Origin: Pantoea cypripedii
GTDB lineage: Bacteria > Pseudomonadota > Gammaproteobacteria > Enterobacterales > Enterobacteriaceae
NCBI RefSeq assembly: GCF_002095535.1
Contig: NZ_MLJI01000001.1
Span: 567,604-631,603, forward strand
Direction of reading: 5' to 3'
Length of the DNA: 64,000 nt
Part shown: positions 2,154-55,560 of the stretch, in pieces
Numbering within the stretch: position 1 is the first letter of the stretch
Layout of the letters: the number at the start of each line of letters is the position of its first letter
Made by a program: the position numbers and the translations under genes
Notes under the pieces: generated by a model
What the model saw: only the letters and a program-made list of their open reading frames with translations
The model's database searches: none
What the model was told of the DNA's origin: nothing

Positions 2154-2224
2154 GTAGCGGCGCGATTTATCGCGCGGTTCCGTGCATGATGCCGGAAAAA
2201 CCGCGCAATAAATTGCGCCGTTAC
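2154..2224. repeat. Dispersed inverted repeat, copy 1 of 5
   Basis: An imperfect palindrome opens with gtagcggcgcgatttatcgc and closes with its near reverse complement ending in cgttac; the short middle is not conserved. It fills the gap between the convergent 3' ends of fepC and entF. The same element recurs at 39794-39865, 46888-46945, 51492-51561 and 55496-55560. RNA from either strand would fold into a long GC-rich hairpin, so it may act as a two-way terminator or 3'-end protector (inference). Confidence 0.85.
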
Positions 2225-2242
2225 CAGAAGGTGCGATCAGGA

Positions 2243-5200
2243 TCAGAATTCGCTCAGCAGTCGCTGCAACAAGGGACCAATCTGCTCGAACATCTGCGGT
2301 GAAATGATATCTACGTGGGCGCAATCCATCGGCCACACTGCCAGTTCACCGACATAGGGTGCCCAGGCGCGTCGCGCGTCCTGCCCCGGTTGCTGCGTTT
2401 GCTCCGCAAGGAACAGGGTTGCGCGTCCGGTAAAGCGGGCGCTGCGCGCGGTCGCCAGCAGGCGAACCGAGCTGGCGTAGTTTGCTTCGATGGTATCGAA
2501 CATCGCCTGCATCTCTTCACCCGCCTGATGACGTTGCGCAGCAATAAACTGCTCACGCTCACGGTTCACTTCTTCCAGCACTGCCGGGTCCAGCACGTTC
2601 TCACCGCGTTTTTCGTCCCAGTTCTGCGTCTCCGGCGGCCAGGTATCGAGCAGGCCAAGGAACGCCACCTCTTCTCCGGCAGCTGTCAGCCGTGCGGCAA
2701 TGCCCTGCGCCAGGGTGCCACCCAGCGAATAGCCAATGAAGTAATAAGGGCCGTGCGGCTGCACCTCACGCAAGGTACGCAGATGGGCGTCACAAACCTC
2801 ATCCAGATGCGCGCTCTGATTCAGCGGGCTATCGGTATCCGGTGACTGAATACCCATCAGCGACCAGCGTGGATCCAGATAGCGTTGCAGGATGCTGAAC
2901 TGCCAGGCAAAACCGGAGGCCGGGTGGAAGCAGAACAGCGTGGGTCCATTACCCTGGCGTAACGGCAGCACCGCTTCGAAACCGGCCTGTTGGTGAGATT
3001 GTTCATCACTCAGCAGGGCCGCCAGTTTTTCGACGGTGGAAGCAACCATGATCTGGCCCACAGACACCGGCTGTTGCAGCTCCCGACGCAACTGTGCAGC
3101 AAGACGCATCGCCAGCAGAGAATGGCCGCCAAGGGCAAAGAAATCATCCTGCGCGCTGATGCTATCGCGCGCCAGCAACTGGCAAAACGCCGCTGCCAGC
3201 TGGCTTTCCAGCCCTGGATGAGGTGCGCGTCCGGTGCTGGCCATGGCGGCCTGCGGTAGCGGTAAGGCTTTGCGATCCAGCTTGCCATTGCTGCTGAGCG
3301 GGAAGGCTTCCAGCTGCACAATCGACACCGGCACCATATGGGCGGGCAATTGCTGCGCCAGCGCATGACGTAGCGTTTCGCCATCAACCGCATGATCGGC
3401 AATCACATAACCGACCAGCTGGCGGGCATCGCCCTGCGCCGCAGCGCCACCCAGCACCACCGCGTGCGTGACGGCCTGCTCGATGCCTGGTTGGGCGCAT
3501 AGCACATGATCGATTTCATTGAGTTCGATGCGCTGACCACGAATTTTTAACTGATCGTCGCTGCGGCCAAGATATTCCACCGCGCCATTTTCCAGCCAGC
3601 GTGCCACATCGCCGGTGCGATACATTCGTTCGCCGTTGCCTGCCGGATCGGCGACAAAACGGCTGGCGGTGAGGTCAGGGCGTCCCAGATAGCCATGCGC
3701 CAGCTGGATTCCGGTCAGATAGAGATCGCCAGCGACACCCGGCGGCACCGGTTGCAGGCGGGCATCGAGAATGCGCAGGCCGGTGTTCCACACCGGATAA
3801 CCGATCGGCACGCTGGCACCTGTAACGGCGGCCAGCGCCTCGCCAAACGCCGGATACCAGCTGACATCCACCGCCGCTTCCGTCGGGCCATATAAATTGT
3901 GCAGCGGCACCTGGGTCAACAGTTCCCACTCGCGCGACAGATCGGTTGGCAACGCTTCGCCGCTACAGAAGACGCGGCGCAGGCTGGTGCAGCTGCTGAT
4001 AGCTGCATCGTCCTGCAAGGCCGCGACAAAGGCCGCCAGCATGGAGGGGACAAAGTGGGTGGTGGTCACCTTATGTTGCGCGAACAACTGTTGCAGCGCT
4101 TCCGGATCGCGATGGGCTTCCGGCGGAGCCATCACCAACTGCGCGCCAACCAGCAGCGGCCAGAAGAATTCCCACACCGAAACGTCAAAGCTGCTCGGGG
4201 TTTTCTGGAGCACCACATCATCAGCTTGCAGCGGGTAGTGATCCTGCATCCACAACAGGCGGTTGACGATGGCTTCATGGCCGACCAGTACCCCTTTGGG
4301 ACGCCCGGTGGAACCCGAGGTATAGATGATATAAGCCCCGTCCTGCGGCTGCGGCGCGCTGATGGGAGCAGGGGCATTCAGCTCAGAGGAGAGCGTATCG
4401 AAATGCAACTGGCTGACTGGCGCAATGGCCGCAAAACGCGCAGAGAGCGAGGCCGAGGTCATCAGGGTTTTGGGGGCCGCGTCTTCCAGCATCAGTTGCA
4501 GACGGTCGTCGGGATAACCGGTATCGAGTGGCAGATAAGCGGCACCCAGTGTCACAATCGCCTGTAACGCCAGCGACAGTTGCACCGAGCGCGGCAGTGC
4601 CACCGCCACGATGTCACCGCGTTGTACGCCAGCGGCGCTTAACTGCTGCGCCAGCGCAAAGACCTGCTGCTGCATCTGGCGATAGCTCAACTGATGCTGC
4701 GCATCGGCCAGCGCCGGAGCATCCGGGGTGCGCGCGGCCTGCCGGGCCAGCAGTGATGCCAGCGTTTCCGCCGGGAGCGGATGCGCGGTGTGGTTGATGT
4801 CTGCCAGCTGGCGATGTTCTTCAGCCGTCAGTAGATCCAGCTCACCGCACGGGCGCTGCGGATCTGCCGCCAGTTGTGCCAGTAACAAGGCGAAACGACG
4901 GCTATGGCGTTGCAGGGTGGGCAGATTGTAGCGTGCCGCATTCGCCAGCAGCTCCAGCGTCAGTTCACCCTGCTCGCTGATGTAGATGGCAATTTCCAGA
5001 TCGCGCACCGGGCCGGATGCCAGCTGATGGGTAATCCCCTCGACACCGGCGAAATCCAGCTGGTAGTCAAACATCTTCAGGTTGATCACCGGGCCGTAAA
5101 GCGGATCGCCATCACCGAGACGCCCGAGATCGCGCATCACCTGTTCGGCATCGTAACGCTGGTGGCGGCGCATCTTTTTCACTTCACCGGCCAACTGATT

Positions 5201-6160
5201 CGCCAGCGTAGCCAGCGGTTGTGCCGGATCGTAGTGGATCGCCATCGGCAGCACGTTGATCACCGGGCCGGTGGCGCACAGTGCCGCCGAACCGATACGA
5301 CGCATAAAGATAAAGCCAGCGGAGAAGTCGTTTTGCCCGCTCAGACGGGCCAGCCACAGCCCCACCAGTGCGAAGGCGAGATCGGCGGCGCTATGCTGAG
5401 GATGCTGGCTCACCAGCTGCTGGAAGGTGGCGCGATCCAGCGTCAGGCTGTGACGCAGCAGATCGGTACTGGCGCTTTGTCCTGCCAGTGGCTGGGGTGA
5501 GAGCGACGCAGGTGCAGGCAGGCTGGCACCTTTTTCACGCCAGAACTGGCTGTCACGCGTGAAGGAAGTGGATTGCTGATAGCGCTGATACTCTTCCACT
5601 ACCTCGCTAAAGGGGATAAAGGGCGTTGGCTCCGCTTGCTGTTGCTGCGCCCAGGCGCTGTACAGATTGGCGATGCGGCGCGTCAGAGCGGTAAAACTGA
5701 ACCCATCCACCACCAGATGGTGATAACGCTGATACCAGAACCAGTGCTGCTCACCCAGCCGGAACAGGCAATGATGATACAGCGGCGCACCGCTCAGCAC
5801 GCGCAAATCGCCGTTCATATCGGCGCGCATCAGGGCGCGGGCTTTGCCTGCCGGGTCAGCTTCTGTGCGCAGATCGATGATCTGCGGCTGGCTAAAGTTC
5901 TGCGCCTGCGGCCATTGCAGCGCTTCGCCGTCCACTTCGCCAAACGCCATATTTAGCGTATCGGCTTCCTGCATACCCGCAATAATCGCTTTGCACAGCA
6001 GGGCGCTATCGATATCACCCTGCAATTCAATAAAGTGCGCGACCGCATAGGCGTTGTGATGGCGGGACAACTGATCGGCAATCCAGATGCCGGGCTGGGC
6101 CGCCACCAGCGGCAGGGTTTGCTGTTCGGTGAGATGTCGGTTCATCAGGGATTCAGACAT
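2243..6160 (-). CDS. entF: Enterobactin synthase component F (EntF), NRPS
   Basis: This 1305-residue single-module nonribosomal peptide synthetase activates L-serine, joins it to 2,3-dihydroxybenzoate and cyclises three units to enterobactin. Domain order is condensation (HHLVVDG, residues 147-153), adenylation (core YTSGSTGRPKG, 613-623; LYGPTEAAVDVSW near 755-767; YRTGD near 846-850), carrier (LGGHSL, 1009-1014, with phosphopantetheine Ser1013) and thioesterase (GYSLGG, 1142-1147, Ser1144; candidate catalytic His in CAHVD near 1288). It is full length against about 1293 in E. coli. Its start lies within the end of ybdZ (8 bp overlap), so it should be translated together with its MbtH-like partner. 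The other synthesis genes (entCEBA, entD) are not in the window. Confidence 0.97.
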   Translation of the reverse strand: MSESLMNRHLTEQQTLPLVAAQPGIWIADQLSRHHNAYAVAHFIELQGDIDSALLCKAIIAGMQEADTLNMAFGEVDGEALQWPQAQNFSQPQIIDLRTEADPAGKARALMRADMNGDLRVLSGAPLYHHCLFRLGEQHWFWYQRYHHLVVDGFSFTALTRRIANLYSAWAQQQQAEPTPFIPFSEVVEEYQRYQQSTSFTRDSQFWREKGASLPAPASLSPQPLAGQSASTDLLRHSLTLDRATFQQLVSQHPQHSAADLAFALVGLWLARLSGQNDFSAGFIFMRRIGSAALCATGPVINVLPMAIHYDPAQPLATLANQLAGEVKKMRRHQRYDAEQVMRDLGRLGDGDPLYGPVINLKMFDYQLDFAGVEGITHQLASGPVRDLEIAIYISEQGELTLELLANAARYNLPTLQRHSRRFALLLAQLAADPQRPCGELDLLTAEEHRQLADINHTAHPLPAETLASLLARQAARTPDAPALADAQHQLSYRQMQQQVFALAQQLSAAGVQRGDIVAVALPRSVQLSLALQAIVTLGAAYLPLDTGYPDDRLQLMLEDAAPKTLMTSASLSARFAAIAPVSQLHFDTLSSELNAPAPISAPQPQDGAYIIYTSGSTGRPKGVLVGHEAIVNRLLWMQDHYPLQADDVVLQKTPSSFDVSVWEFFWPLLVGAQLVMAPPEAHRDPEALQQLFAQHKVTTTHFVPSMLAAFVAALQDDAAISSCTSLRRVFCSGEALPTDLSREWELLTQVPLHNLYGPTEAAVDVSWYPAFGEALAAVTGASVPIGYPVWNTGLRILDARLQPVPPGVAGDLYLTGIQLAHGYLGRPDLTASRFVADPAGNGERMYRTGDVARWLENGAVEYLGRSDDQLKIRGQRIELNEIDHVLCAQPGIEQAVTHAVVLGGAAAQGDARQLVGYVIADHAVDGETLRHALAQQLPAHMVPVSIVQLEAFPLSSNGKLDRKALPLPQAAMASTGRAPHPGLESQLAAAFCQLLARDSISAQDDFFALGGHSLLAMRLAAQLRRELQQPVSVGQIMVASTVEKLAALLSDEQSHQQAGFEAVLPLRQGNGPTLFCFHPASGFAWQFSILQRYLDPRWSLMGIQSPDTDSPLNQSAHLDEVCDAHLRTLREVQPHGPYYFIGYSLGGTLAQGIAARLTAAGEEVAFLGLLDTWPPETQNWDEKRGENVLDPAVLEEVNREREQFIAAQRHQAGEEMQAMFDTIEANYASSVRLLATARSARFTGRATLFLAEQTQQPGQDARRAWAPYVGELAVWPMDCAHVDIISPQMFEQIGPLLQRLLSEF

Positions 6161-6374: not shown

Positions 6375-6390
6375 GTCGGCTCCTGCTTGT

Positions 6391-7608: not shown

Positions 7609-7657
7609 AGGTGCTGCCAGTCGCCGTTTACTCAAGGATCTTTTCACAAAGGTTACA

Positions 7658-14058: not shown

Positions 14059-14093
14059 TCCCATGGCGGAGCATGGCACCTTCTCTGCCCGCC

Positions 14094-38993: not shown

Positions 38994-39264
38994 ACCAGTT
39001 GTTCAGGCTGGGCGGCTGTTGCGCCACCAGTTGCAGTTTCTGTGCCCGGCTTAACTGCTTCACCTGATACTCAAGCCGTGATGCGGCAGACCGATCGCCC
39101 GCATCACAATGAAATACCAGCGTCAGTGGACCTTTTCCGCGCAATGATCGCGCTCCACGTCCCTGCTGATGCTGCTGTAAACGCCGGTTCACGTCTGTGG
39201 TGATGCCGGTGTAGAGTTGGCCTGCGGCGGTTTGCAGCATATACAGCTGCCAGCCCTGCTCCAT
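38977..39264 (-). CDS. yhbQ: GIY-YIG domain protein YhbQ
   Basis: This 95-residue protein is a stand-alone GIY-YIG nuclease-like domain of the UPF0213 type. The motif is seen as LYMLQT followed by LYTGIT, then the conserved Arg in NRRLQQH and a Glu in SRLEYQVK. It may act on damaged or replicating DNA; its role is not settled. Its 3' end overlaps yhbS by 17 bp on the opposite strand. Confidence 0.92.
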
Positions 39265-39269
39265 GATGA

Positions 39270-39865
<596 letters not shown>

Positions 39866-39886
39866 GGGTTGTGCAGGCTTAATCTA

Positions 39887-40411: not shown

Positions 40412-40594
40412 CTTTCTCCTCCTTGTCGTACCTGGGTGTCAGATCAAGTGTGGTTGCCCACCTGCAAAACGCAAGCAGGTCAAATTTAGAGCGTTTAAGC
40501 ATGGAAAAATTCCTTCACCTGATAAACACTCAGGTTAATCCGTCGTGCCGTCCGGTGCGATTTTCGTTATTCAGGTTGAATACGGGACTCTGCC

Positions 40595-41632: not shown

Positions 41633-42091
41633 ATACCAGATTTTCTGATTGCGGCTGCCGCGCCACAGCAGCCGCGCATCTTTCTCTTCTTCGATAAAAC
41701 GCCCGTCGATTAGCACGTCGATTTCCGCGATCACCTCGCGCTGGGCATCACTCAGCTCCGCCAGCTGATAGCCGGTCCACAACCAGATATCCTTATCCGG
41801 ACATTCGCGCCGTACGCGTTTCACCAGGCGACGTATATGCGGCACGTTATGCGGATGCAGCGGATCGCCGCCGCTTAGCGACAATCCCTGACGCGGAATG
41901 CGACGATCCTGCAAATCGGCGATCAATTTTTCTTCCATCGCCAGCGTAAACGGCACACCGGAATCGAGTCGCCAGGTGCTCTGGTTGTAGCAGCCACGGC
42001 ACTGGTGCTCGCAACCGGCGACAAACAGCGTGCAGCGCGTACCCGGCCCGTTAACGATATCGACGTCATAATAGCGATGGATATGCATCAT
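41525..42091 (-). CDS. nrdG: Anaerobic ribonucleotide reductase activating protein NrdG, C-terminally extended
   Basis: This radical SAM activase makes the glycyl radical on NrdD. The cluster motif CxxxCxxC is at Cys27, Cys31 and Cys34, and the GGE-like motif is LSGGDPLHP. Residues 1-155 align with the whole E. coli protein (154), which ends in an LR. Here no stop follows; the frame runs on for 33 more residues rich in Gln, His, Gly and Pro, antisense to the end of yraQ. The start overlaps the nrdD stop by 4 bp (ATGA). The extension is odd and may be recent. Confidence 0.93.
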   Translation of the reverse strand: MMHIHRYYDVDIVNGPGTRCTLFVAGCEHQCRGCYNQSTWRLDSGVPFTLAMEEKLIADLQDRRIPRQGLSLSGGDPLHPHNVPHIRRLVKRVRRECPDKDIWLWTGYQLAELSDAQREVIAEIDVLIDGRFIEEEKDARLLWRGSRNQKIWYLRQPQGEHPDQHPTDGHTQQGYPQGAGRKSPVQHQ

Positions 42092-44226: not shown

Positions 44227-44238
44227 TTAGCCTCCATG

Positions 44239-44286
44239 AAACTACATGTTGTGGTTTTATTGAAGTGTAATATCTACATATGGTGT
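44239..44286 (-). promoter_or_regulatory. Pair of NrdR-like boxes upstream of nrdD
   Basis: Two similar 16-bp partial palindromes occur at 44239-44254 (core ctacatgttg) and 44271-44286 (core ctacatatgg). Each matches 8 of 10 core positions of the NrdR box CwAtATaTwG, and they are 32 bp apart, about three helical turns, as is typical for NrdR box pairs. The first lies only 13 bp from the nrdD start codon. Confidence 0.65.
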
Positions 44287-44494
44287 TTGCGCGGAAATTA
44301 ATTAGGCCGTTATTGACCAGGCGCAAGGAAGTTCCTGCAAAGCATGAAAGGCGTGCATTCTGCCATCTGACTAAACTGAAAAAGTTTTAACACGCCCATA
44401 CTTCTGGTTTGCCTGGCTTGATTTGCGTCGCGAAGCAGATTTAATGGGCTTTTTGCCGGTTTTGGTCCGTCAATTTTCCACAAGGATGCCCCTC

Positions 44495-46879
44495 ATGCCT
44501 CTGCCCCGAACGCTGCTCGCCTGTTGTTTATCAATGAGTTTTTCTGCTTTCGCGACACCGGCGGGTGACCTGCCGCTTATGCCCTGGCCGCAACAGGTTG
44601 AACAGCCGCACAGCGGCGGAGCGTATCAGCTGACACCACAGCTCACGCTGCAAATCTCGGGCGATCATCTGGAGGGGGCGGAGGTGCGTTGGCTGGCGCG
44701 CATCGCACGGCAAACCGGCTGGCCGTTGTTGCCGTCTGGCGATGCAGACGAAAAGGCCACCATTCGCATCCAGATTGCGGATGCAGTTGATCCACTCCCC
44801 CAGCCGGACAGCGATGAAAGCTATCATCTGGTGGTCAACAGTGACGGCGTGTTGCTGGAGGCCAGGACTCGCTTTGGCGCGATGCGCGGCATGGAGACGT
44901 TGTTGCAGCTGATTGAAAACAGCGAAAGTGGCACGGTGATCCCCTACGTCACCATCGATGATCAGCCGCGTTTTGCATGGCGCGGCTTGCTGATCGATTC
45001 TGCCCGTCACTTTATGCCGGTGGAGACCCTCAAACGTCAGATTGATGGCATCGCGGCGGCGCGTATGAATGTTTTCCACTGGCATCTGACCGACGATCAG
45101 GGCTGGCGCTTTGCCTCCAGCCATTATCCCCAATTGCAGGAGAAAGCCAGCGATGGTCGCTACTACACGCAGCAGGAAATGCGTGATGTGGTGCAATACG
45201 CCACGCAACGCGGTATCCGCGTGGTGCCGGAAATCGATCTGCCCGGCCATGCATCGGCCATGGCGGTGGCGATGCCGGAGTTGATGAGCGCGCCAGGACC
45301 CTATGCGATGGAGCGCGGCTGGGGGGTGTTTAAGCCGTTGCTCGATCCGAGTAATGAAGAAGTCTTCAACTTTATTAATACGCTGGTGGGGGAGGTGGCG
45401 GCGATCTTTCCGGATCCTTACCTGCATATTGGTGGCGATGAAGTTGATCCCACGCAGTGGAATGATTCCCCAAAAATTCAGCAGTTTATGCGCGATCATG
45501 GCCTGAAAGACGCCCATGCCTTACAGGCGTGGTTTAATCAGCGGGTGGAAAAAATCCTCGAAGCCCATCAGCGGCAGATGGTGGGCTGGGACGAAATCTA
45601 TCATCCCGATCTGCCGCATAGCATTCTGATCCAGTCATGGCAGGGGCAGGATGCGCTGGGCGAGGTGGTGAAAAATGGCTATCGCGGCATCCTCTCAACC
45701 GGTTTCTATCTCGACCAGCCACAGCCTGCGGCTTATCACTACCGCAACGAACCTTTCCCCCAGGGGTTGAATGGGCAGGATCAGCTGCAACCGGGTGAAC
45801 AGGCGCAGAGCTGGCAATTCACCCTGCCGCGCCTGAAGGGCAGCCCGGTGCAGGGCAGCTTCACCCTGATTGACGGCAAAGGAGGCTGGCGCGGGTTTAT
45901 CGACTTCAGCGGCAAAGCACGGCGCATGGTCAGCCAGGTTGACTGGCTGTCCCCTGGGCAGGTGACGTTCCGTGTCGATAGCTGGATGGGAGAAGTACAG
46001 CCGGTGGTGACGCTGACGGAAAACAACCTGACCGGTTATATGCTGGTGGGTAACGTGCGTTATCCCACCGAGGGGAGCCTCCTGGCGCAGATGCCAGCGG
46101 GTATCGCTCCGTCACTGCCGACAACCCAGCAACTGAGCGACAATCTGTTGGGCGGCGAAGCGGCGCTGTGGGCAGAAAACGTCAACAGCCAGATTATTGA
46201 TACCAAACTGTGGCCGCGTACTTTTGTCGTGGCCGAGCGGCTGTGGTCAGCCGCTGACGTGAACGACAGCGACAATATGTACCAGCGTCTGCGTGCTATC
46301 GATCGCTGGAGCACCGTGTCGGTAGGGTTGCAACAATACCGGCAGGCGGAGGTGCAGATGATGCGTCTGGCCAACAGTACCGATATCACCCCGCTGCGCG
46401 TGCTGAGCGAAGTGCTGGAACCGGCGCAATATTACACGCGCCAGCATCTGAAATTCCAGGCGGGGCACTACAACTATTTTGAACCACTGAACCGGCTGGC
46501 TGACGTGCTACCTGCGGAGAGTGAAGCGATACGTTTGCTGGATAAACAGGTTGATGCGTTGATTACCAACCGCGAAAACCATCAGGCCGCCAACGCCATT
46601 CGCCAGCAGTTACAACGCTGGCTGAGCAATTGCGACCGGGTAATGCCGCTGACGCTGCATAACTATCAGCTGCATGCGTTACAACCGCAGGTGCAGCAGG
46701 TGGCTGAGCTGAGTCGTATGGGGCTGGATTTAGTGGCGACGTTGCAGCGTAATCAGGCGTATGGTGCAGGCGAAGTGGCGCAGATGCAGGCAAAACTGGA
46801 TGCGGCTGCACAGGTGCAGGATGAAACGGTGCTGGCTATGGTGCGACCACTGGAGAAACTACTGCGTTCTTTCAAATAA
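44495..46879 (+). CDS. Exported GH20 beta-N-acetylhexosaminidase with an inserted domain
   Basis: This 794-residue enzyme removes terminal N-acetylhexosamines, probably from chitin-type or cell-wall oligosaccharides. A signal peptide (MPLPRTLLACCLSMSFSAFA) is followed by a GH20b N-domain (about 25-150) and the catalytic barrel. The acid/base pair is Asp315-Glu316 in HIGGDEVDP; FHWHLTDDQGWR and EIDLPGHASAM are also seen. About 130 residues (near 45750-46143) are inserted between strands of the barrel before GGEAALWAEN. The ATG at 44495 has AAGGA 8 nt upstream. It occupies the site where E. coli carries treBCR and mgtA. Confidence 0.9.
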   Translation: MPLPRTLLACCLSMSFSAFATPAGDLPLMPWPQQVEQPHSGGAYQLTPQLTLQISGDHLEGAEVRWLARIARQTGWPLLPSGDADEKATIRIQIADAVDPLPQPDSDESYHLVVNSDGVLLEARTRFGAMRGMETLLQLIENSESGTVIPYVTIDDQPRFAWRGLLIDSARHFMPVETLKRQIDGIAAARMNVFHWHLTDDQGWRFASSHYPQLQEKASDGRYYTQQEMRDVVQYATQRGIRVVPEIDLPGHASAMAVAMPELMSAPGPYAMERGWGVFKPLLDPSNEEVFNFINTLVGEVAAIFPDPYLHIGGDEVDPTQWNDSPKIQQFMRDHGLKDAHALQAWFNQRVEKILEAHQRQMVGWDEIYHPDLPHSILIQSWQGQDALGEVVKNGYRGILSTGFYLDQPQPAAYHYRNEPFPQGLNGQDQLQPGEQAQSWQFTLPRLKGSPVQGSFTLIDGKGGWRGFIDFSGKARRMVSQVDWLSPGQVTFRVDSWMGEVQPVVTLTENNLTGYMLVGNVRYPTEGSLLAQMPAGIAPSLPTTQQLSDNLLGGEAALWAENVNSQIIDTKLWPRTFVVAERLWSAADVNDSDNMYQRLRAIDRWSTVSVGLQQYRQAEVQMMRLANSTDITPLRVLSEVLEPAQYYTRQHLKFQAGHYNYFEPLNRLADVLPAESEAIRLLDKQVDALITNRENHQAANAIRQQLQRWLSNCDRVMPLTLHNYQLHALQPQVQQVAELSRMGLDLVATLQRNQAYGAGEVAQMQAKLDAAAQVQDETVLAMVRPLEKLLRSFK

Positions 46880-46887
46880 TCACGGAC

Positions 46888-46945
46888 GTAGCGGCGCGAT
46901 TTATCGCGCGGATTTTTCTGGCATCGCGCGAAATCGCGCCGCTAC
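46888..46945. repeat. Dispersed inverted repeat, copy 3 of 5 (short form)
   Basis: This is the shortest copy. The 5' arm is the same as in the others; the 3' arm is slightly shortened (gcgcgaaatcgcgccgctac). It lies between the convergent hexosaminidase and ridA genes, 8 bp after one stop and 6 bp from the other. Confidence 0.87.
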
Positions 46946-46951
46946 GTGGGA

Positions 46952-47338
46952 TCAACGACGAATCGCGATCGCTTCGATCTCAATCTTCACGTCTTTCGGC
47001 AGACGTGCCACTTCTACGCAGGAGCGTGCCGGGAAGCTGGCGTTATGCTCGGTGAAAAAGGCTTCATAGGTGGCGTTGACGGTGGCGAAATCGTTCAGAT
47101 CTTTCACGAACACCGTGGTTTTTACGATATCGCCCACTTTCAGGCCAGCGGCTTCAACAATCGCCTTCACGTTTTCCAGCGACTGACGCGCCTGAGCGGA
47201 AACATCTTCTGCTACGGCACCGGTTTGCGGATCCACCGGAATCTGGCCGGAGGTGATGATCATGCTGCCGAGATCCACGCCCTGTACATACGGACCAATC
47301 GCTGCCGGTGCTTTTTCAGTACTGATTTCGCGAGACAT
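46952..47338 (-). CDS. ridA: 2-iminobutanoate/2-iminopropanoate deaminase RidA
   Basis: This 128-residue trimeric enzyme hydrolyses reactive enamine/imine intermediates made by threonine dehydratase and similar enzymes. Conserved blocks are APAAIGPYVQ, the IITSGQIPVDP segment, and PARSCVEVARLPKDVKIEIE, which carries the carboxylate-binding Arg near 105. The length is exactly that of E. coli. It is next to pyrI, as in E. coli. Confidence 0.97.
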   Translation of the reverse strand: MSREISTEKAPAAIGPYVQGVDLGSMIITSGQIPVDPQTGAVAEDVSAQARQSLENVKAIVEAAGLKVGDIVKTTVFVKDLNDFATVNATYEAFFTEHNASFPARSCVEVARLPKDVKIEIEAIAIRR

Positions 47339-47419
47339 TGTTTCTCCTTAAGAAAGTGCGCCGCCAGCCGCTGCCAGCGACGTGAAAATATCGACCCATT
47401 ATAGGGACGATGCCGACGA

Positions 47420-47884
47420 TTACCAGTGACCGAGCACCACGTGATGCGCGAACTCTTTCTCGCAATATTTGCACTTCAGATGCACTTCGTTATCGCGCTT
47501 TTTCACCGCAAAACTGGAGAACACCGGCTCGCTGCGGCTGATGCAGTTGCCGTTCGGGCAGGTGAGCACGCGCTCGATACGATCCGGTAACGTCGGGGCG
47601 ATCTTCGCCACCACTTCATACTCGTCGATGCGGTTGACGGTGGCATGCGGCGCATACACCGCCAGCTGGTTGATTTGATCGTCGGTCAGGAAGGTGTTTT
47701 CGATCTTGATCAGATCCTTACGTCCCATTTCACCGGAAGGCAGATTCAAACCAATGGTGATGCGCTGATCGGTTTCCGTCAGGCGAAACAGCGACAGTAA
47801 CTTAAAGCCAACCTGTGCCGGGATATGGTCAATCACCGTGCCGCGTTTGATGGCTTCAACCTGCAATTTGTTATCGTGTGTCAT
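47420..47884 (-). CDS. pyrI: Aspartate carbamoyltransferase regulatory chain PyrI
   Basis: This 154-residue subunit gives aspartate transcarbamoylase its CTP inhibition and ATP activation. The N-terminal allosteric domain ([17 protein letters not shown]) is followed by a zinc domain with Cys residues in CPNGNC and CKYC near residues 110-142. It follows pyrB by 13 bp, so the two subunits are cotranscribed. Confidence 0.97.
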
Positions 47885-47897
47885 GCTGTTTTCCTCC

Positions 47898-48833
47898 TTA
47901 CAGGGCCAGGTCGCGATTCAGGACCAGCGCCAGCAGCGCCTGGCGGGCGAAGATGCCGTTACCCGCCTGCTGGAAATACCAGGCGTGTGGCGTGCTATCG
48001 ACGTCGGTGGTGATCTCATCAATGCGGGGCAGCGGATGCAGCACCTTCATATTGTCGCGTGCCCCTACCAGGTCGCTGGCGCGCAGAATGAACTGGGCCT
48101 TAACGTTGGCGTATTCCGACGGGTCGAGACGCTCTTTCTGCACGCGTGTCATATACAGGATATCCAGCTGCGGCAGCACTTCTTCGATGCTGTCATGACG
48201 TGACCAGCTGATGTTGCGTTCATCCAGCATATCGGTGATGTAAGACGGCATCGCCAGCGCATCAGGGGCGATAAAGAAGAAGCGGTTGCCGTCGAATTTT
48301 GCCAGCGCCTGAGTCAGGGAATGCACGGTACGGCCATATTTCAGGTCACCGACCATCGCCACATTCAGGTTATCCAGACGGCTCTGGGTTTCGCGAATGG
48401 TAAACAGGTCGAGCAGGGTTTGGGTCGGATGCTGGTTGGCACCGTCACCGGCATTAAGAATCGGCACGCCGCCGGAAAACTCGGTCGCAAGGCGAGCGGC
48501 CCCTTCCTGCGGATGGCGCATCACGATGGCATCAACATAGGTGCCAATCACCGAGATGGTATCGGCAAGCGTTTCACCTTTCTTACCGAGCGAAGTGTTG
48601 CTGCCGTCAGCAAAACCCACCACCGAGGCACCGAGGCGATGGATGGCGGTTTCGAACGACAGGCGGGTACGCGTCGAGGCTTCAAAGAAGCAGCTGGCAA
48701 TCACGTTGTGCTTCAGCAGCTCTGGCTGTGGATGCGCTTTCAGCTGTGCAGCGGTATGCAGTACCAGCTCCAGCTCGTCGCGGCTGAGATCGTTAATAGA
48801 AATAATGTGCTTACGATATAGCGGGTTGGCCAT
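47898..48833 (-). CDS. pyrB: Aspartate carbamoyltransferase catalytic chain PyrB
   Basis: This 311-residue enzyme catalyses the committed step of pyrimidine synthesis, joining carbamoyl phosphate and aspartate. The phosphate-binding motif STRTR is near residues 53-57, with the [12 protein letters not shown] block near 134-145 and the LPR loop near 265. It is the same length as in E. coli. Expression should be set by the upstream pyrL leader and attenuator. Confidence 0.98.
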
Positions 48834-48865
48834 AGCTCTCTCCTCTGCGCTGCCGGATGACGGAC

Positions 48866-48897
48866 AAAAAAAGCCCCTGCTTAAGGGGCTTTTTTTG
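48866..48897 (-). terminator. pyrBI attenuator
   Basis: On the minus strand the stem agcccc/ggggct is flanked by seven A and seven T, a strong intrinsic terminator 33 bp before pyrB. The pyrL reading frame ends inside it. In E. coli, low UTP slows polymerase so that ribosomes on the leader block this hairpin and allow pyrBI expression. Confidence 0.93.
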
Positions 48898-48982
48898 CGA
48901 TCGATTGATGACGGAAAGAAACAGATGCGCCGCCAGCTTTCTGGCGTAATGGAGCGTCAAATTGTGCGCTGCGCTGTTGCAT
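48881..48982 (-). CDS. pyrL: pyrBI operon leader peptide PyrL
   Basis: A 33-codon frame starts at an ATG with a strong GGGAGGA site and stops with TAA inside the attenuator loop. The coding stretch contains a T-rich run (tgtttctttcc on the mRNA-like strand) that could act as the UTP-sensitive pause. E. coli PyrL has 44 residues and a different sequence; the place, ribosome site and overlap with the terminator identify it. Its N-terminus is [10 protein letters not shown]. Confidence 0.85.
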
Positions 48983-49007
48983 GCTTCCTCCCGGCAAATT
49001 GTGGCGC

Positions 49008-49035
49008 ATTATACGCATTCACTGATTTGCATCAA
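49008..49035 (-). promoter_or_regulatory. Sigma-70 promoter for pyrL-pyrB-pyrI
   Basis: On the minus strand TTGATG (49030-49035) and a perfect TATAAT (49008-49013) are 16 bp apart, about 25 bp upstream of the pyrL start. Confidence 0.8.
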
Positions 49036-49075
49036 GCAAAAATCGCGGCGAGGTAAACGTTTGCCCTGGCGGCTG

Positions 49076-50083
49076 TTACGGCTGCCCCAGCGTGGCGACC
49101 ATCACCGCTTTGATGGTGTGCATACGGTTCTCTGCCTGATCAAATACGATGCTGTGCTCCGACTCAAACACGTCATTGCTGACTTCCATGCCGTCTTGCA
49201 GACCGTACTGCTCGGCCATCTGGTGTCCGAGGGTGGTTTGATCGTCGTGGAAGGCGGGCAGGCAGTGCAGGAATTTAACCTGCGGATTGCCGGTGAGCGC
49301 CAGCATCGCGCTGTTGACCTGATACGGGCGCAGCAGGGCGATACGATCGGCCCATACCGATTTGGCTTCGCCCATCGATACCCATACGTCAGTGTAGATG
49401 AAATCGGCACCCTGCACGCCTTCGGCGATATCTTCCGTCAGGGTAATTTTGCCACCGGTTTTCTGTGCCGCCACACGGCACTGCTCCACCAGTTGTTCTT
49501 CCGGCCAGCAGCCTTTCGGTGCCACCAGACGCAGATCCAGCCCGACCAGCGCTGCCGCTTCCAGCATGCTGTTGCCCATGTTGTTGCGGGCGTCACCGAC
49601 GTACACCAGCGTCATTTCGCTCAGGGATTTTTGCGGCAGATGTTCCTGCATGGTGAGGAGATCCGCCAGCAGCTGCGTCGGATGGAACTCGGTGGTCAGC
49701 CCGTTCCATACCGGCACGCCAGCATATTCGGCAAGGGTTTCCACCAGCGCCTGGCCGTAGCCACGGTACTGGATGCCGTCATACATGCGTCCCAGCACGC
49801 GCGCGGTATCTTTCATCGACTCTTTATGGCCGATCTGGCTGCCGCTCGGGCCGAGGTAAGTGACGTTAGCACCCTGGTCGTAAGCGGCAACTTCGAAAGA
49901 GCAACGGGTACGGGTCGAGTCTTTTTCGAAGATGAGCGCGATGTTTTTACCTTTCAGGTACTGCGTTTCGCTGGCGTTTTTCTTTGCGTGTTTTAATTCA
50001 CCGGCAAGACTTAACAGGTAATCAATTTCTGCTGGGGTGAAATCCAGCAATCTCAGGAAATGACGTTGATTCAGCTGACTCAT
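49076..50083 (-). CDS. argI: Ornithine carbamoyltransferase
   Basis: This 335-residue enzyme forms citrulline from ornithine and carbamoyl phosphate in arginine synthesis. The carbamoyl phosphate site STRTRCSFE lies near residues 56-64, [11 protein letters not shown] near 134, and the ornithine site HCLPAFHD near 273. Its place beside pyrB and rraB matches argI of E. coli; species with one copy often call it argF. Two ARG boxes cover the promoter, so arginine repression through ArgR is expected. Confidence 0.97.
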
Positions 50084-50107
50084 ACAGCTCTCCGTGTGAT
50101 CATCATA

Positions 50108-50146
50108 AATGAATTAAAATTCAATCTAACCGTATGAATATGCATT
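50108..50146 (-). promoter_or_regulatory. Tandem ARG boxes (ArgR operator)
   Basis: Box 1 (50108-50125) has the perfect palindromic core tgaattaaaattca. Box 2 (50129-50146) is weaker, with halves cgtat and atgca. They are 3 bp apart, the standard spacing for an ArgR hexamer. They overlap a plausible promoter on the minus strand (TTGAAA then TTAGAT). Confidence 0.82.
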
Positions 50147-50247
50147 TTCAACCCCGACGTTAAGAAACTTTGTGTTTTGAGTAGTGGCGCGCGAGGCAGT
50201 GTGGGAAAATAATTGCATTCATTGCCGAACATTTTGAGGACATCACC

Positions 50248-50670
50248 ATGGCATACGAAGCATTGCTGGAAGAACAACGCGAAGAGACGCGGTTGATCAT
50301 TGATGAATTACTGGAAGATGGCAGCGATCCGGATGCGCTCTACACCATCGAGCATCATCTCTCCTGCAACAATTTTGACTCGCTGGAAAAAGCAGCGGTT
50401 GATGCCTTCAAGCTGGGCTACGAAGTCACCGAGCCGGAGGAACTGGAGCTGGAAGATGGCAGCACGGTGATGTGTGTCGATATTCTGAGCGAAGCGGCGT
50501 TGAAACCCGAGCTGATCGATGCGCAGGTTGAGCAACTGGTGAACCTGGCGGGTAAATACAACGTCGATTACGACGGCTGGGGAACCTATTTTGAAGACCC
50601 GGATGCTGAAGACGAAGATGACGACGGCGACTTTATCGACGATGAAGACGACAACGGTGTGCGTCACTAA
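50248..50670 (+). CDS. rraB: Ribonuclease E inhibitor RraB
   Basis: This 140-residue acidic protein binds RNase E and changes degradosome activity. Blocks [20 protein letters not shown] near residues 8-27, [12 protein letters not shown] and [15 protein letters not shown] match the family, and the C-terminus is a run of Asp/Glu ending in NGVRH. E. coli RraB is 138 residues. It diverges from argI. Confidence 0.96.
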
Positions 50671-50677
50671 GGCTTAA

Positions 50678-50697
50678 CGGGCGGCGCAGGCCGCCCG
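50678..50697 (+). other. Hairpin between rraB and miaE
   Basis: The palindrome cgggcggcgcaggccgcccg follows the rraB stop by 7 bp. No T-run follows. It could be a weak terminator or a stability element in an rraB-miaE transcript. Confidence 0.5.
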
Positions 50698-50728
50698 AAC
50701 TCAATTCCCCGCAAGACAAAGACAACCG

Positions 50729-51490
50729 ATGAATTACGCCCCGCTGTTAGAACCTATCCATCAGTTTCTGCATTGCCGCACGCCGCAGGCGTGGATTGAT
50801 GAAGCGCGCAAACCAGAAAATCTGACGTTGCTGCTGACCGATCATATGGTATGCGAGTTGAAAGCGGCACAAACCGCCGTCTGGCTGATTCGCAAATATG
50901 TCGCGGATAAGCCCAGTGGTGACGCCATTCTGGCGTGGCTACAGCCTTATGAAGATTTCATCTTTGGTGAAAATCACGACAGCAACTTTATCAACGCCCA
51001 TAAGAATCTGACCAAAAGTATCATCGTGCGTAATGAACTGCCGTGGGCGGATGATTTGGTGGAAAAGATGGTGCTGCTGATCAAAGAAGAGCTGCATCAT
51101 TTTTATCAGGTATGGGAAATCATGCAGGCGCGCGATCTGCCGTATCGCAAAATCACCGCCAGCCGCTACGCGAAGGGATTGCTGCGTGAAGTCACCACAC
51201 ATGAACCGGATACGCTGGTGGATAAGCTGATTTGTGGCGCTTACATTGAAGCGCGTTCCTGCGAACGTTTTGCCAGCCTGGCACCGTATCTGGATGAGCA
51301 ACTGGAGAAATTCTACATTTCCCTGCTGCGTTCAGAAGCACGTCATTACCAGGATTATCTGGCGCTGGCGGCGCAGATATCGCCGAAGGATATCGCACCA
51401 CGCGTACGCGCCATTGGTGAGGCAGAAGGGCGGTTAATCAGCGAACCGGATACGGAGCTGCGTTTTCATAGCGGTGTACCGACCTTCTGA
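50729..51490 (+). CDS. miaE: tRNA-(ms2io6A) hydroxylase MiaE
   Basis: This 253-residue non-haem diiron enzyme hydroxylates ms2i6A37 in tRNAs that read UNN codons. Ligand motifs of the ferritin-like fold are visible: EELHHFYQVWE near residue 115, EARSCERFAS near 170 and EARHYQDY near 203. E. coli lacks the gene; Salmonella carries it in the same region beside rraB. It converges on yjgM, with a dispersed repeat just after its stop. Confidence 0.93.
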   Translation: MNYAPLLEPIHQFLHCRTPQAWIDEARKPENLTLLLTDHMVCELKAAQTAVWLIRKYVADKPSGDAILAWLQPYEDFIFGENHDSNFINAHKNLTKSIIVRNELPWADDLVEKMVLLIKEELHHFYQVWEIMQARDLPYRKITASRYAKGLLREVTTHEPDTLVDKLICGAYIEARSCERFASLAPYLDEQLEKFYISLLRSEARHYQDYLALAAQISPKDIAPRVRAIGEAEGRLISEPDTELRFHSGVPTF

Positions 51491-51491
51491 C

Positions 51492-51561
51492 GTAGCGGCG
51501 CGATTTATCGCGCAATGTTTTTGGCGCGTGTACAAACCCGCGCGATAAATCGCGCGGCTAC
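51492..51561. repeat. Dispersed inverted repeat, copy 4 of 5
   Basis: The 5' arm starts 2 bp after the miaE stop. The 3' arm supplies the TAG stop (51558-51560) of yjgM on the minus strand. It lies between two convergent genes like copies 1-3. Confidence 0.9.
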
Positions 51562-52067
51562 AGGGTCCGTAGCATCCGTACTTCGCAATCCACATGCCCG
51601 GTGCAGCCCAGCGCTTCTTCAATCAGCGTAAAACCGAGCGATTCATATAACTTAATGGCACGCGTCAGGCTGCCGGTGGTTTCCAGATAACAGCGGCGAA
51701 ACCCCTGCTGGCGCGCATAATCCATCGCGCGCAGTGCCAGATCACGCGCCAGGCCAAAGCCGCGCACTTCCGGCATAAAGTACATCTTTTGCAATTCACA
51801 AATATCTGGCGCACTGCATGCCAGTGGTGCCACGCCGCCCCCGCCCAGCACCTTGCCCTGATGCTCGACAATCCAGTAGGCGCTGTTCGTTTCGCTATAC
51901 AACTCAAACAAACGATCCAGGTTGGGATCGGACACGGTATAGCCTTTGTCTGCGGTCAGACCGAACTCGGCAGACACCGCGCGAATCACCTGCGCAATCA
52001 GCGGATTATCGGCAGCAGTAATCGGGCGCACCTGAAGATTCAGTGGGGTGACGGTGGTCATTATCAT
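51558..52067 (-). CDS. yjgM: GNAT N-acetyltransferase YjgM
   Basis: This 169-residue GCN5-type acetyltransferase has GGGGVAPL and [21 protein letters not shown] (acetyl-CoA loop R-G-x-G-x-A near 98-104) and the C-terminal [15 protein letters not shown]. The last block closely matches E. coli YjgM. Two starts two codons apart (52067 and 52061) both fit the ggatga site. The stop codon is inside a dispersed repeat. The substrate is not known from the sequence. Confidence 0.92.
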
Positions 52068-52077
52068 CTCATCCGAT

Positions 52078-52104
52078 ATAAAAAAGCCGGGCAGTGCCCG
52101 GCTT
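52078..52104 (-). terminator. Intrinsic terminator after valS
   Basis: On the minus strand the stem agccgggcactgcccggct is followed by six T. It ends the pepA-holC-valS transcript before yjgM. Confidence 0.9.
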
Positions 52105-52129
52105 CGGTTAAGCAGTTGGCCTGAAACGC

Positions 52130-54985
52130 TTACAATGCCGCAATCACGCCCTGCTGTTCAATCAGTTTTGCTTTCGATTGTTCCAGCTCTGCTGCACGCT
52201 CGCGCTCCTTCGCCACCACCGCTTCCGGTGCGCGGGCGACAAAGCCTTCGTTCGCCAGCTTGGTCTGGATCTTCTCGATCTCAACATCAAGCTTGGTCAG
52301 CTCTTTAGCCAGACGATCCAGCTCCGCGTCTTTGTTGACCAGATCCGCCATCGGGATCAGCAGCTCCGCGCCTTCAACGATCTTGGTCACCGATACCGGG
52401 CCTTTCTCGCCCGCAGGCAGAATGGTCAGGCTTTCCAGGCGCGCCAGACGCGACAGGAAGTTGCGGTTCTCTTCCACGCGACGCAGCGCCGCAGGGGAGC
52501 AATCACGCAGCAGCACATCCAGCGGCTTGCTCAGTGCGATGTTCATTTCGGCACGGATATTACGTACCGCGACAATCGCCTGCTTCATCCACTCGATATC
52601 CGCTTTGGCCACGGCATCTTCTTTCGCCGCATCGTACTGCGGGAACGGTTGCAGCATGATGGTATCGTCGCTGATATTTTTCAGGCCTTTGACACGCTGC
52701 CAGATGGTTTCGGTGATAAACGGAATAATCGGGTGCGCCAGGCGCAGCAACGCTTCCAGCACGGTGACCAGCGTATTACGCGTGCCGCGCAGTTCCGCTT
52801 CGCTGCCGCTGTTCATCACTGGCTTGGTCAGCTCCAGATACCAGTCACAGAACTGGTTCCAGGTGAAGTCGTACAGCAGGTTCGCCGCGATATCGAAACG
52901 ATAGCTGTCCAGCGCTTCACGATAGGCTTTCACCGTGCTGTTGAACTCGGTCAGGATCCAGCGATCCGCCAGCGACAGCTTCATTTCGCCGCCGTTCTGA
53001 CCACAATCCTGATCTTCGGTGTTCATCAGCACAAAGCGGCTGGCGTTCCACAGCTTGTTACAGAAGTTGCGGTAGCCTTCCAGGCGCTTCATATCCCAGT
53101 TGATGTCGCGGCCGGTTGACGCCAGTGCCGCCAGGGTAAAGCGCAGGGCGTCGGTGCCTGATGGCACGATCCCGTCCGGGAACTGCTTCTCGGTGCGTTT
53201 ACGGATTTTATCCGCCAGCTGCGGCTGCATCATGTTGCCGGTACGTTTTTCCAGCAGATCTTCCAGCGAAATGCCGTCAACCATATCCAGCGGATCGATG
53301 ACGTTACCTTTCGACTTGGACATCTTCTGTCCTTCTTCGTCGCGGATCAGGCCGGTGATATACACGGTCTTGAACGGCACCTGCGGTTTGCCGTCTTCAT
53401 CTTTCATGAAGTGCATGGTCAGCATGATCATGCGGGCAATCCAGAAGAAGATGATGTCGAAGCCACTCACCAGCACGCTGGTCGGGTGGAAGGTACGCAG
53501 CGCTTCGGTGTTCTCCGGCCAGCCGAGGGTCGAGAAGGTCCACAGGCCGGAAGAGAACCAGGTATCCAGCACGTCTTCGTCCTGGCGCAGCGCGATGTCG
53601 GCAGCCAGATTATTTTCCTGACGAACTTCCTCTTCGGTGCGACCTACGTACACGTTGCCGTGGTTGTCGTACCAGGCCGGGATGCGATGACCCCACCACA
53701 GCTGACGGGAAATACACCAGTCCTGAATATCACGCATCCAGGAGAAATACATGTTTTCGTACTGCTTCGGCACAAACTGGATGTCGCCGTTTTCCACTGC
53801 TTCCACCGCGACTTTCGCCAGCGGGGCAGTGCGCACGTACCATTGGTCGGTCAGCATGGGCTCGATCACCACACCACCACGGTCGCCGTAAGGAACGGTC
53901 AGATCGTGAGGTTTGACCTCATCCAGCAGGCCGAGTGCGTCAACCGCAGCCACCATCGCTTTACGCGCGGCAAAACGTTCCATGTTCTGGAACTGCGCCG
54001 GGATTTCGTTGCTGTACACATCGGTTTCTTCACCGTTGGTGTCCAGCACTTCGGCGGTGACACGGATATCGCCATCGAAAGTCAGGATGTTGATCATCGG
54101 CAGCGCGTGACGACGACCGACTTCGTAGTCGTTAAAGTCGTGCGCCGGGGTGATCTTCACGCAACCGGTGCCTTTTTCCATATCGGCGTGATCATCACCG
54201 ACGATCGGAATGCGACGGTTGACCAGCGGCAGGATCAGTTCTTTGCCGATCAGATCTTTGTAGCGCGGATCTTCCGGGTTCACTGCCACACCGGTATCGC
54301 CCAGCAGGGTTTCCGGACGGGTGGTGGCGACCACCAGATAATCTTTACCTTCCGCGGTTTTGGCACCATCGGCCAGCGGATAGCGGATATGCCACATGGA
54401 ACCTTTGGTTTCACGGTTCTCCACTTCAAGGTCAGAAATGGCGGTACGCAGTTTCGGATCCCAGTTCACCAGGCGCTTGCCACGGTAAATCAGGTTCTCT
54501 TTGTACAGGCGTACAAACACTTCTTTCACGGCATTGGAAAGCCCTTCATCCATGGTGAAGCGCTCGCGCTCCCAGTCAACCGAGTTGCCGAGGCGACGCA
54601 TCTGACGGGAGATATTGCCGCCAGATTCCGCTTTCCACTGCCAGATTTTGTCGATAAAGGCGTCGCGACCGTAATCCTGACGCGTTTTGCCTTCTTCAGC
54701 CGCGATTTTGCGCTCAACCACCATCTGGGTAGCGATACCCGCGTGGTCAGTACCGGCCTGCCACAGGGTGTTTTTACCCTGCATACGCTGGTAGCGAATC
54801 ATGGTGTCCATGATGGTCTGCTGGAAGGCGTGACCCATATGCAAGCTGCCGGTGACGTTCGGCGGCGGGATCATGATGCAAAAGCTTTCCTGGCTGGTAT
54901 CGCCATTGGGTTTAAAGTAGCCCTGCTGTTCCCAGTGCTCGTAGAGCGGCTGCTCGATATCTTGCGGGTTATATGTCTTTTCCAT
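52130..54985 (-). CDS. valS: Valine-tRNA ligase
   Basis: This 951-residue class I synthetase is exactly the E. coli length. The HIGH-type motif is in [15 protein letters not shown] near residues 41-55, the CP1 editing domain spans about 200-350, KMSKS is in [10 protein letters not shown] near 553, and a C-terminal coiled coil (about 885-951) binds tRNA. It starts 5 bp after holC, so pepA, holC and valS form one operon, as in E. coli. Confidence 0.99.
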
Positions 54986-54990
54986 TTCTG

Positions 54991-55449
54991 CTATGTCGTT
55001 TGCGGCTGTGGTGGTGTCGCCGTATTCAATTGGAAACCAACGCTGCGATACGCTTTGTAGCGGTCACGCGCCAGTTGTTTCTGGGATTCTTCGTAAGGTA
55101 CGAAGTCTATCACTTCATGGAAAGCAGTAGCAAAATCTGCAAACTGCGGCAGCAGGCTGATCAGCAAATCGCGTGGCGAGCTGCCACGACGTTGCGGCCA
55201 CGCCAGTTCAACCGGTGCGCCATAACGCGGCCCTTCACCGGCCAGGTTATGCGGCACAAAGGCGTTGGCCGGGCGCTGCCATAATGCTTCATCCAGACGA
55301 TTCGCCTGCTGTTCATCGTTGCAGGCAATCAGGATGCGTTTGCCGTCACGCCAGCGTGCTTCGGCCAGATCGCACACCAGCGCTTCGATGGCGCTCAGGC
55401 CGTCGCTGGCAGTATCGGACTCCATCACATAAAAGGTGGCGTTTTTCAT
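54991..55449 (-). CDS. holC: DNA polymerase III chi subunit HolC
   Basis: This 152-residue protein is part of the clamp-loader complex and links it to single-strand binding protein. The family pattern is seen in ATFYVM at the start, [20 protein letters not shown] near residues 38-57 and [10 protein letters not shown] near 64-73. The C-terminus ([10 protein letters not shown]) is slightly longer than in E. coli (147). It lies between pepA and valS; a dispersed repeat precedes it. Confidence 0.95.
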
Positions 55450-55495
55450 GGCGGGCTACATTCCATTAATGACATTGGGGCGCATTATGCGCCCT

Positions 55496-55560
55496 GTAGC
55501 GGCGCGATTCATCGCGCCTTTTTGTTCGAGGACAACATGCGCGATAAATCGCGCCGCTAC
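55496..55560. repeat. Dispersed inverted repeat, copy 5 of 5
   Basis: Arms gtagcggcgcgattcatcgc and gcgataaatcgcgccgctac enclose a 65-bp element. It starts 46 bp upstream of holC and ends 3 bp from the pepA stop. This is the only copy between genes on the same strand, so it may reduce read-through from pepA into holC-valS. Confidence 0.9.

Follow-up and report, generated by a model that had tools for sequence, protein, structure and literature searches.

The stretch of DNA analysed here, called the window in the following, comprises 64,000 nucleotides of the 6.55 Mb genome of Pantoea cypripedii, which consists of three contigs (window: C1:567604-631603). It contains five copies of a long palindromic repeat, all of them located at the 3' ends of genes. 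The results presented below suggest that these copies are inverted dimers of a GTAG-class repetitive extragenic palindrome (REP), of the kind known as REPIN (REP doublet forming a hairpin) or bacterial interspersed mosaic element (BIME), and that they owe their spread to a REP-associated tyrosine transposase (RAYT), which is encoded by a single-copy gene on the same contig. We consider this interpretation highly probable (about 0.93). The copies and their neighbouring genes, which were predicted with a home-made dicodon finder, are located in the window as follows.

1341-2141, plus strand: enterobactin-type ABC transporter ATPase gene
2154-2224: copy 1, GTAG-outside REP dimer (left arm 2154-2175, right arm 2203-2224)
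2243-6160, minus strand: entF-like nonribosomal peptide synthetase gene
39366-39797, plus strand: YhbP-family gene
39794-39865: copy 2, GTAG-outside REP dimer
39887-40411, minus strand: PfpI family gene, facing gene at copy 2
44579-46879, plus strand: glycosyl hydrolase 20 gene
46888-46945: copy 3, GTAG-outside REP dimer with shortened spacer
46952-47338, minus strand: Rid-family gene
50729-51490, plus strand: miaE, facing gene at copy 4
51492-51561: copy 4, GTAG-outside REP dimer
51558-52061, minus strand: GNAT gene
54991-55449, minus strand: holC-like gene (NF004345, 259 of 281 bits)
55496-55560: copy 5, GTAG-outside REP dimer, separated from pepA by 3 bases and from the holC-like gene by 46
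55564-57075, minus strand: pepA (named by NF002072, score above the cut-off)

The five copies were found exactly at the coordinates given in the first-pass annotation of this DNA. A 20-base arm pattern with up to three mismatches matched ten sites in the window, corresponding to both arms of each copy, and no site in 100 dinucleotide shuffles of it. As had been described, converging genes flank four of the five copies and the fifth adjoins the 3' end of pepA; it lies three bases past the stop codon. At two copies the tag is part of the gene: the stop codon of the YhbP-family gene is the TAG of the left GTAG of copy 2 (39795-39797), and that of the GNAT gene is the TAG of the right GTAG of copy 4 (51558-51560). 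The right arm of copy 1, a GCGCAAT variant, carries three changes. The counterpart of copy 3 in the sister species G305, which is 94% identical to P. cypripedii over 378 kb, is the same element with a longer spacer. An Rfam search of the window at the gathering score gave seven matches, none of them at the five repeats. A match to RF02850 (Ysr276, antisense; 195 bits) at 56323-56517, on the strand opposite pepA, may reflect only the gene, because pepA is a conserved coding sequence.

The repeat unit is a self-folding arm

The long palindrome is composed of two shorter foldbacks, i.e. two inverted units. The unit is the single arm, GTAG-CG-GCGCGAT-TT-ATCGCGC, which folds on itself into a 7-bp stem with a 2-base loop, and two such units in inverted orientation constitute a GTAG-class REP dimer of the REPIN/BIME type. 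The repeat of this window is referred to as family A. A scan of the P. cypripedii genome with the 22-base arm (up to three mismatches) revealed a dispersed repeat with 490 arms, 235 forward and 255 reverse, and the reversed control gave none. For further analyses P. cypripedii and G305 were each sampled as C1:1-1,200,000. On hairpins of this shape the GTAG tag occurs 88 times in the P. cypripedii sample, compared with 0-1 for seven other tags, and 162 times in G305, compared with 0-4. The P. cypripedii sample contains 31 GTAG-outside dimers, 5 GTAG-inside dimers and 26 single units.

The exact arm is present at no fewer than 120 loci of a species collection; 111 of them, on which the collection counts are based, lie in records titled Pantoea, Enterobacter or Erwinia, and nine from records with Omnitrophota, Chloroflexi or Bacteroidetes titles were set aside. 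A family-wide comparison found the arm (at most one mismatch) in 2 of 295 genomes, both of the genus of P. cypripedii. Within the genus, 23 of 61 genomes carry it at up to two mismatches, with 1 to 842 arms each.

Covariation was analysed with 518 arms (117 from P. cypripedii, 151 from G305 and 250 from the collection loci). Among arms with two stem changes, both changes fall within one base pair in 81 of 97 cases, compared with a chance expectation of 1 in 13; counted by distinct sequences the ratio is 15 of 31, as one sub-family supplies most of the 81. The two arms of a dimer differ from each other in 104 of 166 dimers. In 59 of these the foldbacks of both arms are whole and the pairing between the arms is broken, in 4 the reverse is the case, in 20 both pairings are broken and in 21 neither. 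The compensating arms described in the first-pass annotation therefore hold for the foldback within one arm, where structure-preserving changes were found, but not for the pairing between arms.

The inverted ends and the variable middle of the copies would also suit a classical miniature inverted-repeat transposable element (MITE) of an unrelated insertion sequence with the arms as terminal inverted repeats, a label that had been applied to these copies. The MITE reading was rejected, as target-site duplications of 2-9 bases showed no excess over shuffles in 125 GTAG-outside dimers. The arms also occur singly and in an inside-out arrangement, the conserved unit is the foldback of the arm, and a RAYT exists with the repeat on both sides (see below). 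Such an origin is extremely improbable.

Placement at gene 3' ends

All 65 repeat clusters of the P. cypripedii sample and all 83 of the G305 sample could be assigned to gaps between predicted genes, with the mid-point within 12 bases. Tabulating the orientation of the flanking genes against the expectation from intergenic length demonstrated a strong bias for 3' ends and convergent gaps, so that the placement noticed in the window holds beyond it. In P. cypripedii 48 clusters are convergent, 14 tandem and 3 divergent (expected 9.5, 35.2 and 20.3), in G305 the numbers are 52, 29 and 2 (expected 18.5, 38.3 and 26.2), and for 118 placed collection loci, which were chosen by the exact arm, 63, 51 and 4 (expected 13.1, 67.7 and 37.2), with 14 more at edges. 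The repeat occupies 29% of the convergent gaps in P. cypripedii and 30% in G305, and 4.6% and 10.2%, respectively, of the tandem gaps longer than 150 bases. Copies lie a median of 11-12 bases from the closest stop codon. In 9 of 988 P. cypripedii genes, including the two in the window, the TAG of the tag serves as stop codon. Both the 3'-end and convergent bias and the use as stop codon are described for GTAG REPs in PMC3733652.

A RAYT gene bracketed by the repeat

A search for a RAYT-type transposase with NCBIfam NF047646 yielded a match at C1:2636279-2636650 (E 5.6e-17). The corresponding single-copy gene (C1:2636231-2636668) is located on the same contig at a distance of 2.0 Mb from the window and encodes 146 residues. 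The protein is distantly related (E 4.5e-5) to TnpArep 4er8, the structure of which is solved, and its motifs PNHLHG and QYIEQNP align to PEHMHC and DYIYINP of 4er8; we take these to be the HUH motif and the motif of the catalytic tyrosine. Two GTAG-inside dimers enclose the gene, and each of their four arms matches with 0 mismatches. In the coordinates of locus L223 these arms lie at 1287, 1328, 1919 and 1960, and the RAYT gene at 1453-1893.

The Pfam family Y1_Tnp (PF01797) had no match in the P. cypripedii genome. A REP without a transposase, considered after this empty search, was rejected when NF047646 revealed the RAYT; with default settings, RAYTs of this kind escape a Pfam Y1_Tnp search. 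Y1_Tnp matches in 9 of 61 genomes of the genus showed no association with the repeat. These are separate genes (e.g. G328:C1:141860 and G300:C2:417893), and a link to the repeat was rejected as 14 of 14 such loci contain no arm within 6 mismatches. With a loose search, a weak open frame flanked by GTAG hairpins was found in G319; a loose match in P. cypripedii at C1:908580 (E 0.11, three internal stops) was taken for chance.

Across the genus NF047646 matched 12 of 61 genomes, one of them weakly. Using the P. cypripedii RAYT protein as query, matches were obtained in 11 of the 61 genomes, namely 10 of the 23 with the repeat, including G309 with a single arm, and 1 of the 38 others (Fisher p 1e-4). 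The comparison of RAYT loci covers 30 of 56 matching genomes. The four RAYT proteins with family A on their flanks (P. cypripedii, G322, G323 and G240) share 60-99% identity with each other and 45-55% with six others; G310, with an internal stop, was left out of this comparison. The other RAYTs are flanked by other stems, e.g. GGTCGCCAT, GGTGCGCAT, GGTCGGCAT and GGGCGCCAT, as far as the loci reach. The type of the flanking repeat thus goes with the type of the RAYT. Family-A-flanked RAYTs contain WQFNF or WQYNF and the others WQRSF or WQRGF. The positions that distinguish the two groups lie next to a W and a Q which, according to PMC6006769, the E. coli enzyme uses for GTAG, and they are candidate specificity residues. 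Upstream of the G240 RAYT (L220, 104-1315) the A-type REP dimer is arranged in tandem, mostly every 174 bases.

By analogy with E. coli and other TnpAREP proteins, the RAYT would bind the single-stranded hairpin, cleave next to it, aided by GTAG, and move the repeat. Selection would eliminate most insertions elsewhere, in genes or promoters, and leave the copies concentrated between convergent genes and some 11 bases behind stop codons. The repeat would then not owe its presence to effects on mRNA ends or termination, which would be secondary benefits or merely be tolerated. The mobile REP-like element of the first-pass annotation agrees with these data: hundreds of copies, a GTAG tag, a RAYT flanked by the repeat, presence and absence differing between species, and no target duplication.

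Several observations weigh against this interpretation. With 66.5 of 80 bits for NF047646 (E 2.3e-18) and 12.4 of 23 bits for Y1_Tnp, the RAYT falls short of the curated cut-offs, which are thresholds for naming rather than biological features. Thirteen of the 23 repeat-bearing genomes gave no RAYT match, and some of these carry many arms (465 in G332 and 326 in G340). The repeat can therefore outlive its RAYT. At the RAYT locus of G340, G332 and G338 one GTAG-inside A dimer is present without a RAYT, from which we infer that the gene may have been lost there; recombination between the two flanking dimers would leave such a remnant. Finally, G305 has 551 family A arms, yet its own RAYT is flanked by another family.

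Different REP families at the same gene ends

The RAYT of G305 is located at the same locus as that of P. cypripedii (flanks 94% and 91% identical), but it is a different allele with 54% protein identity, and it is flanked by a GGT family, designated family B. That a sister species has a different RAYT and a different flanking REP family at this locus, and that its family B takes gene ends held by A in P. cypripedii (see below), are the least expected results of this analysis.

To compare both genomes, 911 of 987 gaps were matched, and the test was limited to gaps without A in G305 and without B in P. cypripedii. Family B is present in G305 in 11 of 16 gaps with A in P. cypripedii, compared with 5 of 820 gaps that are REP-free in P. 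cypripedii (p 6e-18). Restricting the test to convergent gaps (7 of 9 versus 5 of 97, p 1e-6) or to tandem gaps (4 of 7 versus 0 of 569, p 8e-9) leaves the association in place. Some of the P. cypripedii A copies among the 11 swaps are degenerate; with strict copies (at most two mismatches) the ratio is 8 of 12 versus 5 of 820 (p 1e-13), with 5 of 7 in convergent and 3 of 5 in tandem gaps. The swap sites include copies 1 and 5 of the window, where G305 carries family B. Mosaics were found at three P. cypripedii A sites: in G305 a B repeat adjoins A there or lies within it. Import of the swapped slots together with foreign flanks was unsupported, the mean flank identity being 95.0% for the 11 swaps and 94.8% for 661 REP-free convergent or tandem gaps. 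Where both species have GTAG-outside A dimers, the spacers are at least 70% alike in 6 of 23 pairs (random spacer pairs: median 36%, 95th percentile 64%); some of the 17 unlike pairs are plain deletions or spacerless forms.

Two slots of the window were followed across the genus. The copy-5 slot at pepA, read in 30 of 61 matching genomes, contains A in P. cypripedii only, B in four genomes and otherwise another palindrome, plain stems or nothing; it is empty in the relatives G340, G332, G322 and G323, which favours refilling at this slot. A palindrome of about 130 bases (CCCCCACAAGTGGGGG type) was noticed in the pepA-holC slot of L325, L327, L329, L337 and L339 (G348, G347, G315, G320 and G319), which belong to a different part of the genus. 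B occupies the copy-1 slot, read in 30 of 45 matching genomes, in eight cases (two of them with one arm recognised); elsewhere this slot contains A, in either arrangement, or other sequences. A is common to P. cypripedii, G340, G332 (shrunk), G322 and G323 (degenerate).

These data would fit gene 3' ends that act as fixed REP slots, with the occupant exchanged after a RAYT allele of other REP specificity has replaced the old one; the positions of the sites would then be older than the sequences in them. We put this forward tentatively, at somewhat less than even odds. The new REP might insert into or beside the GTAG tags of the old one, the old copy being lost afterwards, or the old copy might be converted in place. 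A gene-conversion origin of REPs is reportedly an old idea, to judge from a title in the reference list of PMC8266576. Slot sharing may thus be due to targeting of old REPs, to in-place conversion or to uneven tolerance. That it just reflects the small number of intergenic gaps that tolerate insertions has close to an even chance: the slots are gene 3' ends, and the pepA slot, with A in P. cypripedii, nothing in four relatives and B in others, looks as expected for independent refilling. Uneven tolerance of gap classes fits less well with an association that holds inside both the convergent and the tandem class and persists with strict copies, and with mosaics in which B lies beside or inside A.

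Turnover of REP families at fixed slots is clearly seen here and is the part that merits further attention; the kind of repeat and its 3'-end bias were already known. A natural experiment is provided by two sister species that share 94% identity and differ in the RAYT allele at one locus and in the REPs beside it. It also includes relatives that lack a RAYT and retain hundreds of copies, and gene ends that are occupied by one family in some species and by another elsewhere. Which feature of a RAYT decides on the REP that is moved, and whether REPs at gene ends are useful or merely tolerated, thereby become testable.

T tracts and RNA 3' ends

The arms are accompanied by T tracts, defined as at least four T in eight bases. 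In the five copies of the window they are located as follows.

2196-2200, minus strand: T tract of copy 1 (AAAAA on the plus strand), after the right arm, read from the sequence
39836-39842, minus strand: T tract of copy 2, after the right arm, terminator-like on the minus strand
46913-46917, plus strand: T tract of copy 3, after the left arm, terminator-like on the plus strand
51518-51522, plus strand: T tract of copy 4, after the left arm, terminator-like on the plus strand
55519-55523, plus strand: T tract of copy 5, after the left arm, terminator-like on the plus strand, pointing away from pepA

A terminator pattern scan covered 38500-57500, i.e. copies 2-5, with copy 1 outside, and each of the four copies scored on one strand. 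In P. cypripedii and G305 a T tract follows 127 of 198 family A arms, compared with 242 of 1633 random convergent-gap positions. It is also found outside GTAG-inside dimers (6 of 10 in P. cypripedii, 13 of 26 in G305 and 15 of 30 at collection loci). Because it is present inside GTAG-outside and outside GTAG-inside dimers, the T tract belongs to the unit. In other species the tract is weaker (49 of 104 sides of GTAG-outside dimers and 22 of 50 singles at the collection loci), and in P. cypripedii it follows 8 of 26 single units. Family B has TGG in that place and a T tract in 8 of 42 cases, near background. The five whole copies fold at -37.9 to -48.4 kcal/mol (z -5.3 to -8.1); the folding of one arm alone is no better than that of shuffles (z -0.34).

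The first-pass annotation had proposed that the copies are kept as a two-way transcription stop or as a shield of RNA 3' ends, which the data do not establish. If the repeats were kept mainly as bidirectional intrinsic terminators, the arm and its T tract would stop transcription on one strand and the inverted pair on both. The excess of T tracts after the arms, also on the outer side of GTAG-inside dimers, would fit, as would the short distance to stop codons and the share of convergent gaps occupied. Other terminators are somewhat rarer at repeat-bearing than at repeat-free convergent ends (22 of 90 versus 72 of 202 in P. cypripedii, 21 of 92 versus 68 of 204 in G305; p 0.08 each, the two tests not being independent). 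However, single arms in tandem gaps are not directed to the upstream gene but face both ways (12 sense, 11 antisense), so that a selected two-way terminator is unproven. An arm scores as terminator on the appropriate strand at just 29 of 90 repeat-bearing convergent gene ends in P. cypripedii and 34 of 92 in G305. The weaker T tracts of other species and of single units, the near-background level of family B in the same slots, the one-strand scores of copies 2-5 with a tract at copy 5 that points away from pepA, and the poor folding of a lone arm also argue against termination as the main function. The T tract could instead be a recognition tail for the RAYT. Taken together, we regard conservation as terminators as quite unlikely.

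For E. coli REPs it was proposed that the hairpin shields the mRNA from 3' exonucleases. Copies that block these enzymes after termination further downstream would be consistent with the very stable folds of the whole copies, their closeness to stop codons and the fact that other species carry unrelated hairpin families at these gene ends. The folding energy follows from the palindromic form, though, and the four near relatives named above do without a REP at the pepA slot, so that conservation as a shield appears unlikely. Termination and 3'-end protection are possible side effects of dimers that were probably spread by the RAYT.

Comparison with known systems and further occurrences

The closest likeness is to the GTAG-class REPs of Di Nocera et al. 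2013 (PMC3733652). They likewise have a GTAG tag, mostly 6-9 bp stems with short loops, and head-head and tail-tail dimers mostly 20-100 bp apart. Further shared features are spacers with complementary ends, a bias for convergent and unidirectional sites close to stop codons, the TAG of the tag as stop codon, and an association with RAYTs in which some species lack the RAYT. In the main text Pantoea is not named, and a T tract after the unit is not known to be described there. The REPINs of Bertels and Rainey 2011 (PMC3116915) are likewise dispersed units of two inverted REPs, present in hundreds of copies together with a RAYT. They differ from the Pantoea dimers, whose spacers are less than 70% alike at 17 of 23 head-head slots shared by sister species. 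According to PMC8266576, the Group 3 TnpAREP systems of Stenotrophomonas maltophilia (Sm) and Marinomonas (Mb) likewise show small perfect palindromes near GTAG, with two bases between tag and stem in Mb, and RAYTs flanked by REPs. E. coli REP/BIME sequences, as generally known and as mentioned in PMC3733652, likewise form extragenic inverted pairs and mosaics, but according to that text their units have long complex loops with inner pairing, in contrast to the short, perfect Pantoea stem. Literature searches gave no publication on REPs or RAYTs of Pantoea among the matches listed. The system is a REP-RAYT system of known kind, and the Pantoea case was not found in print in the literature searched.

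The dimer is also present on large Pantoea plasmids (15 Pantoea records, with 31 places on NC_014838.1), so that the repeat is not confined to chromosomes. Three Klebsiella plasmids match only one arm region. The nine records with Omnitrophota, Chloroflexi and Bacteroidetes titles that contain the exact 22-base arm are L096, L099, L110, L118, L120, L127, L129, L144 and L148. In L096, L099 and L110 single arms are located in DNA of 47% GC just before an apparent ribosome-binding site and gene start. The arms in such records may belong to separate, unrelated GTAG repeats. A larger dispersed intergenic repeat with the core GCGGCGACCGAGCAAAGGGG... was additionally noticed in G000 (C1), with core starts at 49824, 90813, 268700, 342402 and 365276. 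All five lie on the plus strand in the first 1.2 Mb, and A REPs and a GTT microsatellite are present at some of them.

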